Below are positions 24,911-26,944 of a stretch of 45,062 nt of DNA, in pieces; within the stretch, counting starts at the first letter, position 1; each line of letters opens with the position of its first letter. The translations under genes and the position numbers were made by a program. Source of the DNA: an uncultured bacterium. Lineage in GTDB: Bacteria; Bacteroidota; Bacteroidia; Bacteroidales; CAIWKO01. The stretch spans positions 1 through 45,062 of the forward strand of contig CAIOYH010000052.1 in the NCBI GenBank assembly GCA_903862465.1. Direction: 5' to 3'. The notes below the pieces were generated by a model that did not search any database, was not told the origin of the DNA, and saw nothing but the letters and a program-made list of their open reading frames with translations.

Positions 24911-24927
24911 TAAGCGTCTAACATAAA

Positions 24928-24966
24928 AAAAACGCCCTGAAATGTATTATTTCAGGGCGTTTTTTA
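24928..24966 (+). terminator. Rho-independent terminator of the DUF1573 gene
   Basis: AACGCCCTGAAAT (24931-24943) pairs perfectly with ATTTCAGGGCGTT (24949-24961) around a 5-base loop, followed by TTTTT. An A-run precedes it, so it may work in both directions. Confidence 0.92.
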
Positions 24967-24980
24967 TTTTACAGTTACAA

Positions 24981-25099
24981 GGGATACTATAAATTAGATT
25001 TTTCGAGGCGGACAAGATTTTTAAAAGCGGAGTTTACTAAGGTAAATGAGCATTTTAAAAATTGAAGTCCAACGATGAAAAAGCAATTTATAGAATCCC
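24981..25099. repeat. 119-bp imperfect-palindrome intergenic element
   Basis: The ends GGGATACTATAAATT (24981-24995) and AATTTATAGAATCCC (25085-25099) pair at 14 of 15 positions. Inside, ATTTTTAAAA pairs with TTTTAAAAAT and GTTTAC pairs with GTAAA(T), giving a nested cruciform-like fold. I see no reading frame. It lies between the DUF1573 terminator and the rho stop codon. From memory, similar elements occur in other Bacteroidota intergenic regions, but this cannot be checked here. Confidence 0.7.
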
Positions 25100-25105
25100 G
25101 TAAGG

Positions 25106-26944
25106 TTAACCGTTCATAAATAATAAGAACTCCTCATTAGTTTGAGCAAATTTCATCTTATCTTTCAAGAACTCCATAGCTTCCACAGGATTCATATCTG
25201 CCAAGTGATTCCGTAAAACCCAAATACGTTGCAGTGCTTCTTTTTCGTGCAATAAATCATCGCGACGTGTGCTCGAAGCAACAATATCAATAGATGGGAA
25301 GATGCGTTTGTTAGACAATTTGCGCTCCAATTGCAATTCCATATTACCCGTACCTTTAAACTCTTCGAAAATAACTTCGTCCATTTTCGAACCGGTTTCA
25401 GTCAGTGCGGTGGCGATAATAGTAAGTGAGCCGCCATTTTCAATCTGACGTGCAGCACCAAAGAACTTTTTAGGTTTCTGCAAAGCGGAAGCTTCCACTC
25501 CACCCGAAAGAACTTTTCCGGAGGCAGGAGCAACAGTATTATACGCACGTGCTAAACGTGTGATAGAATCCAATAATATCATAACATCGTGACCACATTC
25601 CACCAAGCGTTTTGCTTTTTCGAGAACGATGTTGGCAATCTTCACATGTCTTTCTGCAGGCTCATCAAAGGTTGACGCAATCACTTCGGCATTCACGCTG
25701 CGTTGCATGTCTGTGACTTCTTCAGGACGTTCATCCACCAACAAGATGATGAGATATACTTCAGGGTGATTAAAGGCAACTGCATTGGCAATTTCTTTTA
25801 ATATCATGGTCTTACCTGTCTTAGGCTGTGCCACGATTAATCCTCTTTGGCCTTTACCTATCGGAGTGAACATATCCATGATACGTGTGGTCATGGTCAT
25901 GCTGGGATGTCCCGTTAGTTTCAGTTTTTTCTCAGGGAATAAAGGTGTGAGATGGTCGAAACTTACGCGGTCGCGCACTACGTCAGGACTGAGTCCGTTG
26001 ATATGTTCTACTTTAATTAAAGGAAAATATTTTTCTCCTTCTTTGGGAGGCCGAATCTTTCCTTTGATAGTATCGCCTGTTTTCAAACCAAAAAGTTTGA
26101 TTTGCGATTGCGATACATAGATATCATCGGGTGAATTCAAATAATTGTAATCAGACGAACGCAAGAAGCCATAACCATCCACCATAATTTCGAGCACACC
26201 TTCGCTTGAAACTATGCCATCAAATTCAAAAGAATATTCAGGTTGTTTTTCACGTTGCTGGGGAACACGATTGCGTTGTTGATTGTCGCGATGGGGGCGT
26301 TCTTGGTCGTTTTGTTTGTTATCTCCATTAACAGGAGCAGGTGTAACTTCATTTTCGGATTCATTCTTTGCAGGAACAGCGCCATGAACGATTTCAGGTT
26401 CGAGAGGAGCAACGGCAGGTGTTACATCTTCTAATCCGAAAACTTCGTTCACAGGATTGTTGTCGTCGCCATCCAATGAAGGTAGCAGAAAATCAAATTT
26501 CTTAGCTTCTTCCTCAAAGAGTTCTTTTTTATACACTAAATCCGGCGAAGGTGTTTCCACTTTCGGAGTTAGTTTAGGTTTTGGCACCACCGGTGGGGGC
26601 GTATTACGTGTTTGTTTATGGTTCTTTGTGCCATAAGCAAACTTAGGATTCTTTGCAGCGGGTTTTTCGGCTTGCGTAGGTTTTTCTTCGGTTGCAGGCT
26701 TCGGTTTCAGTTCGGGATTGTCAATGCGTGTGCGGCGTTGGGTGAGTTTTCTGCGGTTGGCGCCGTTGGCTTCGGGGGCTTTGGGTTCGTGTTTGATTGC
26801 TTCGGGCTTAATCGCCTGAATGTCCAAAATTTTGTGTATAATGTCTTTTTTTCGGAGGTCTTCAGCATCGGGGATACTTAGTTTCTCAGCAATCACACGC
26901 AATTCAGGAATTGTCATTCCATTGAGGTCAATGATGTTGTACAT
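25106..26944 (-). CDS. rho: Transcription termination factor Rho
   Basis: Rho is the hexameric RNA-dependent ATPase that ends transcription of untranslated RNA. The 612-residue protein has a Rho_N domain at 1-45 ([20 protein letters not shown]), then about 190 residues of Pro/Glu/Asn-rich, probably disordered insert. The RNA-binding cold-shock domain ([16 protein letters not shown]), the Walker A region ([19 protein letters not shown]) and Walker B ([17 protein letters not shown]) follow. The insert makes it far longer than the 419-residue E. coli protein; such inserts are common in Bacteroidota. Single gene with its own promoter and a leader of about 120 bases. Confidence 0.96.

Follow-up and report, generated by a model that had tools for sequence, protein, structure and literature searches.

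The palindrome that lies beside rho in the window (the whole stretch of 45,062 nucleotides that was analysed) is best explained, at odds that we put at roughly three in four, as a 122-bp non-autonomous MITE, a stem-loop of the ERIC superfamily that is moved by different host transposases in different lineages and whose core probably acts as RNA. Its copies are dispersed and noncoding, they carry terminal inverted repeats and 4-bp target duplications, filled sites have empty counterparts, and the interior folds with compensatory changes. All but the last of these features, together with the number of copies, bear out the MITE-like nature that had been proposed in an initial annotation of this DNA.

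The element and its copies in the genus

On the + strand, where the conserved core has the form CGGAGTTTAC-N4-GTAAATGAG, the complete element extends over positions 24979-25100, as judged from the alignment of copies, the analysis of their ends and a full-length match to a model, R1. It had been placed at 24981-25099 (119 bp), and the comparison of copies extends it by two bases at its left end and by one at its right end. Its ends are GAGGGGTTCTA...TAGAACTCCCG, and in the compared copies they abut 4-bp duplications. The parts of the element described next are read on that strand. The left terminal inverted repeat (24979-24997) forms the 5′ arm of the outer stem P1 and the right one (25084-25100) its 3′ arm; the outer arms as initially delimited (24981-24995 and 25085-25099) match each other at 14 of 15 positions, as had been claimed. 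Stem P2, defined by covariation, pairs 24999-25004 with 25077-25082. Internal loop B is conserved in the consensus on both its 5′ side (AGGC, 25005-25010) and its 3′ side (AACGA, 25070-25076). Stem P3, also defined by covariation, has its 5′ side at 25011-25028 and its partner within 25050-25069; the nested inner arms of the initial annotation, 25017-25026 and 25053-25062, do pair, at 10 of 10 positions. The apical core (25028-25051) consists of an internal loop GGA/GA, a stem GTTTAC/GTAAAT and a variable tetraloop (25038-25041). The palindrome is real, but it is not confined to rho. The description of it as near-perfect needs to be qualified: two conserved internal loops make its symmetry imperfect.

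That the whole element can fold as a single hairpin was confirmed: the + strand from 24978 to 25101 gives one hairpin of -42.5 kcal/mol, compared to -16.5 kcal/mol (sd 3.0) for dinucleotide shuffles (z -8.8). The reverse strand folds as well (-34.1 kcal/mol, z -7.8). The GC content is 0.34 and, depending on the reading frame, 0 or 1 of 26 copies is open in any of the six frames. The core can be read as a peptide (PEFTxVNEDF), an interpretation that we rejected because stop codons break nearly all of the 26 copies. At the window element and throughout seven other loci, every Rfam family stayed below its gathering score; the weak Rfam matches in the window, some of them over the element (e.g. 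one of 17.3 bits to a microRNA model, at 24981-25099, for a threshold of 90), were judged to be due to chance.

A search of the window's genome (G000; 230 contigs totalling 4.2 Mb) for further copies gave at least 40 element matches, 78-100% identical and mostly about 120 bp long, which is the reverse of the absence of copies that had been named initially as a refutation. This is a lower bound, 40 of 63 candidates having been scored, and among the 40 rows two are the halves of one interrupted copy (contig C47) and three are copies cut by a contig end (C27, C82 and C214). Among genomes of the same genus, G003 has at least 21 matches, G001 has one and G002 has five short ones. The genes next to the copies are various and lie in either orientation, as read from mechanically defined ORFs.

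Flanking duplications had been suggested as a check, and exact 4-bp target duplications were found around 15 of 33 copies, compared to 4.2 expected from shuffling (none of 2000 shuffles scored as high). They are missing in the other 18, and lengths of 2, 3, 5 and 6 bp gave no signal among the same 33 copies. The test set was drawn from 60 BLAST rows in stretches of G000, G003 and G001, with six orthologous duplicates omitted; the 33 copies are those with both ends recognisable at no more than one mismatch, and the window copy is not among them. In that copy the expected places of the duplication are occupied by TTAC (24975-24978) on the left and TAAG (25101-25104) on the right, which are not identical, the duplication being decayed or absent there. 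When the ends were searched for more loosely, 47 copies were kept and 4 bp was again the best-scoring length. Twelve sites of G003 were also sought in G000. Three alignments had a resolved empty junction, the others being blurred by indels; two of the three go with a perfect 4-bp duplication (TAAA and TATA) and the third with TAA only.

A GC-rich insert (CCGAGCC..GGCGAGCTCAGCGAAGC) is present, nearly the same, at the junction of P1 and P2 in three G000 copies (L028, L029 and L039); a similar insert is found at one end of a G003 copy (L294) and a related one elsewhere in another G000 copy (L041). These inserts perhaps represent a nested small repeat.

Conserved fold and probable relatives in other phyla

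Model R1 is based on 26 copies from the window's genome. When 149 genomes of the order (133 genera) were searched with it, 36 genomes (34 genera) gave matches. In a broader alignment of 67 members, 92.0% of the cells are paired versus 68.4% after shuffling, the covariation score of 0.548 compares to 0.151 on shuffling and to no more than 0.123 on sliding, and of the 45 pairs, 41 are changed on both sides. The fitting of this alignment by R1 and the refinement of the tested structure on it both lean towards pairing. In the P4 cells of the apical core, pairing reaches 98.5%. Identity between lineages, calculated for 33 of 66 members chosen for a P1 less than 70% identical, is 39% in P1, 56% in P2, 53% in P3, 71% in loop B and 88% in the apical core, the last value being inflated by the many members that were gathered through an exact core pattern (those from the order-wide R1 search were not). 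Replacement of helices is visible already among the copies of G000, e.g. GTTTAC/GTAAA versus GTCCCGAC/GTCGGG. A core pattern with a fixed N4 overlooked 17 of 20 Alistipes copies; the six of these that were inspected have a core with a 5-base loop, three of them with GCATAC/GTATGT stems.

The stems contain 138 G.T versus 30 A.C cells (one constant G.T pair omitted), an excess which is partly built in, since the alignment model reads the strand on which the core is given here. A MAFFT alignment of the 26 copies gives 102 to 6, a count inflated by relatedness. Such an excess agrees with what would be expected if this single strand were the one that folds.

From named genomes, at least 120 stretches contain an exact match to the 30-bp degenerate core pattern; most are Bacteroidota MAGs, and the isolates include Deefgea, Iodobacter, Chitinilyticum and Sphingobacterium. 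A second model, R2, was run on genomes selected because the core pattern had matched in them, with candidates scored in part. Among the matches listed at E ≤0.1, there are 14 in the Deefgea genome, 5 in Iodobacter, 3 in Chitinilyticum and 1 in Sphingobacterium, 15 in a Gallionella MAG, 112 in a Methylococcales MAG, 40 in a gammaproteobacterial MAG, 18 in a Chryseobacterium-labelled MAG, 33 in an Amoebophilus MAG, 36 in an Alistipes MAG and 5 in a Rikenellaceae MAG, counts that may include weak matches and reverse-strand matches of one and the same copy. In a phylum-wide draw the family is patchy, with matches in 35 of 296 genomes and 6 of 140 genera. One family from outside the window's class (f136; genomes of 1.6-2.8 Mb) accounts for 31 of these 35 genomes, each with 1-10 matches (at most 11 scored), and constitutes a separate expansion.

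The set of viral contigs contained no exact match to the core pattern, and phages gave no match at E 1e-5. The plasmid collection gave a single one, in a plasmid-labelled Staphylococcus aureus record (NZ_CP077935) which carries an rRNA operon and perR. There, the 16S-23S spacer holds a hairpin (L212:5967-6076) that gives a full-length match to R1 (47 bits, E 6.5e-9) and is 87% identical to the window element over 47 bp. It differs from the window element in its location, the spacer of an rRNA operon, and in its outer stem, which is unrelated. The R2 score of this hairpin, 69.6 bits, is not independent, the sequence being one row of the alignment of R2, and the match concerns one record only within the plasmid collection. 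In a cross-phylum family, a mobile element would thereby have a relative in a staphylococcal rRNA spacer.

Strain typing has long made use of ERIC repeats. To locate the E. coli loci we used as query a 44-base sequence which we take to be the ERIC core. R1 fails to find ERIC, in which it recognises no more than the apical motif (6.8 bits). R2, which was trained without ERIC, matches it over the full model with 34.1-34.6 bits: in 97 kb of the K-12 genome, the two ERICs, located in the ybhI/ybhJ and fbaA/pgk intervals according to gene tables and the 44-base match, rank first and second (34.6 and 34.1 bits), the third match being at 14.8 bits. The link to ERIC rests on this R2 result, whose E value is about 1e-4 per 97 kb with a rough calibration. 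The motifs AAGGC, GGAGYTTAC-N4-GTAARTGA and AACGCAG of ERIC occur in the same order as their counterparts in the element. Like the element, ERIC (also IRU or RU-1; MITEEc1, and MITEPlu5 in Photorhabdus) is one long imperfect hairpin present in dispersed copies, and its length, given as 123-127 bp (PMC2229807, PMC6267812), is close to the 122 bp of the window element. The two differ in the apical loop (GA/GA in ERIC, GGA/GA in the element), in stem lengths and in the sequences of stems and ends; the element does not match the ERIC consensus, and what is common to both is limited to the short core motifs. ERIC hosts are enterobacteria or vibrios, whereas the element resides in Bacteroidota, and for that reason we file it as a relative of ERIC and not as ERIC itself. 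Among the titles listed in literature searches, which lacked most subscription papers, none concerned a relation of ERIC across phyla; this is weak evidence of novelty.

The interior of the element (loop AGGC/AACGA and apical core) probably belongs to one superfamily with enterobacterial ERIC. An alternative is that we are dealing with an ordinary, lineage-specific MITE derived from a lost insertion sequence, with a functionless interior whose likeness to ERIC and to the elements of other phyla is due to convergence of hairpins. We consider this unlikely. It accounts for mobility by terminal repeats and duplications alone, and it gains from the facts that MITE transcripts commonly make stable hairpins (PMC10969869) and that neither a partner nor a function is demonstrated here; but it does not sit well with the recurrence of an exact 30-bp core pattern in so many stretches of named genomes, including isolates of four genera, with loops that are conserved while the stems covary, or with the way R2 singles out ERIC.

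Within the superfamily reading, the role of the core is the least certain step. We prefer to see in it a place, at the RNA level, where a host factor lands: folded as RNA, one strand of the core would most likely recruit a host ribonuclease or another RNA-binding factor, as a result of which insertions near genes would be tolerated. This is modelled on the proposal made for ERIC in Yersinia, where a review describes RNase E-dependent destabilisation of upstream transcripts (PMC2229807; also PMC10969869). Against an RNA role, genes are found in either orientation relative to the copies, an arrangement that such a reading would not necessarily predict.

More tentatively, and with somewhat less than even confidence, one may take ERIC for the branch, in enterobacteria, of a family of selfish stem-loops that is ancient and extends across phyla, whose constant RNA core would recognise a factor shared by most bacteria and whose outer stem would repeatedly become the terminal repeat of a resident transposase (IS630-like, IS5-like or others); the hairpin in the staphylococcal rRNA spacer would have been domesticated. 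For ERIC, a constant core with exchangeable ends separates the question of origin from that of the role of the interior: in a cross-phylum family, the ends would tell which transposase each branch uses, and the constant loops would point to a shared host factor.

Terminal repeats and the search for a mover

The terminal repeats are specific to lineages, and the length of the duplications varies with the lineage. Duplications of 4 bp are also found in G132 (7 of 10) and G088 (6 of 10). In the Chryseobacterium-labelled MAG the terminal repeat is another one and the duplications are of 5 bp (8 of 14, versus 1.3 after shuffling). In the Amoebophilus MAG, TA is present on both sides of 13 of the 14 copies for which both ends were found (12.1 after shuffling), and in the Methylococcales MAG most ends bear CTAG; both patterns are indistinguishable from fixed ends. 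In the gammaproteobacterial MAG (G157), the repeat GAGACCTTTGCACGA and duplications of 5 bp are found around the ERIC-like hairpin (3 of 4, a small result that 38 of 1000 shuffles also attain) and also around elements scored as having another interior (9 of 11, reached by none of 1000 shuffles); one of these 11 (138 bp, G157:C81) is in fact a match to the model, so that the split is nearer to 4 of 5 and 8 of 10. A similar sharing of ends was seen with AGTGTNTGTCNATAAAGTC, which, or a near variant of it, is common to ERIC-like hairpins and to hairpin elements with another interior (L311, L312, L317 and L337).

In its genus, the element is probably moved by cut and paste with a 4-bp stagger, through a DDE transposase that works in trans and uses the terminal repeats; a stagger of other lengths would apply in other lineages. 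Because the terminal repeats have changed, the superfamily has probably changed transposases: it would have exchanged its terminal repeats between lineages and kept its core. Known MITEs offer parallels. MITEPlu5, a 123-bp ERIC-related element of Photorhabdus, is reported to end like IS630 and to be flanked by duplications of TA (PMC6267812), as against 4 bp in the element's genus. BrickBuilt and other MITEs of Porphyromonas gingivalis, also a member of the Bacteroidota, have ends that resemble those of resident IS5-family elements, and GAGACCTTTGCAAAA is the published terminal repeat of an IS5-family element (PMC4596501); BrickBuilt is set apart, by its description, by a minisatellite interior and duplications of varying length (PMC4596501). 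RUP of Streptococcus pneumoniae is a 107-bp MITE whose proposed mover is an IS with similar ends, and differs, again by description, in its IS630-type insertion at TA (PMC2229807).

In G000 and G003, whose assemblies are fragmented, no transposase with matching ends was found among the PF01609 matches (eight rows) and the stray copies of the terminal repeat. The search for a pair of terminal repeats enclosing a transposase gave none for AGTGTNTGTCNATAAAGTC at 30 loci in other genomes of the order, and none for GAGACCTTTGCACGA at 30 loci out of 77 sites in G157; overall, no autonomous partner was present among the loci examined in G000, G003, G157 and the AGTGT group. Two candidates were discarded: the IS5-family elements among the PF01609 matches, whose ends differ, and an IS1182-family element of G000 and G003 with ends AGTGCCTGTTGCACAAC, for which neither ends nor flanks fit. 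The latter encodes a 499-aa transposase, and its right flank, GCAAACTTCG, does not differ between G000 (L373, contig C45) and G003 (L374, contig C289), reflecting either site-specific or orthologous insertion.

Another possibility is mobilisation in the form of single-stranded DNA, in the manner of REP sequences, with a Y1 (RAYT) transposase recognising the hairpin. HUH substrates have a conserved structure, as the element does, and Y1 transposase genes exist in the four genomes of the genus that were searched. REP and REPIN sequences are likewise palindromic, intergenic and present in multiple copies, but they are short and tagged and are not known to produce a target duplication, and the element has no link to Y1 genes in its genus: among the 18 of 19 Y1 loci that were scanned, weak matches (22.6 and 21.4 bits) occur at L055 only. 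Because of the 4- and 5-bp target duplications and since none of the 18 Y1 loci scanned has its gene flanked by the element, we reject mobilisation of this type as very improbable; an outer stem that varies between lineages also speaks against it. At L055 (G003:C283, 1900-2208), other palindromic repeats (CTCCGCC..GGCGGAG, GGGCTAAAGCCC) are clustered beside the Y1 transposase gene, and are likely to represent a REP/RAYT system in the same genus.

The rho site

The window copy is bordered on one side by the rho stop codon (25106-25108) and on the other by a gene for a DUF1573-domain protein, both gene identities being confirmed by Pfam. Between the latter and the element, and outside it, lies a palindromic terminator-like hairpin (24927-24965) with 17-bp arms that match at 100%; hairpin and stop codon are positioned as initially annotated. 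The element is present at the same rho site in G003. In G001 the same genes and a terminator-like hairpin are found, and the element is absent. The copy probably entered the interval from the rho stop codon to the terminator before two species of the genus diverged.

A cis-acting RNA element of rho, either a stabiliser of the 3′ end or an autoregulatory site, is hardly credible, for although the element is within the predicted 3′ UTR of rho and folds stably on both strands, at least 40 or so copies lie beside different genes and rho lacks one in G001. For the same reasons, and because G001 keeps its terminator-like hairpin at the empty site, the idea that the element serves to provide a stable 3′ end for rho mRNA is unsupported. 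From its place in the predicted 3′ UTR it may have an incidental effect on this mRNA, whose 3′ end is more likely to be formed, to judge from a consensus scan, by the terminator-like hairpin, which on the rho strand follows the element.
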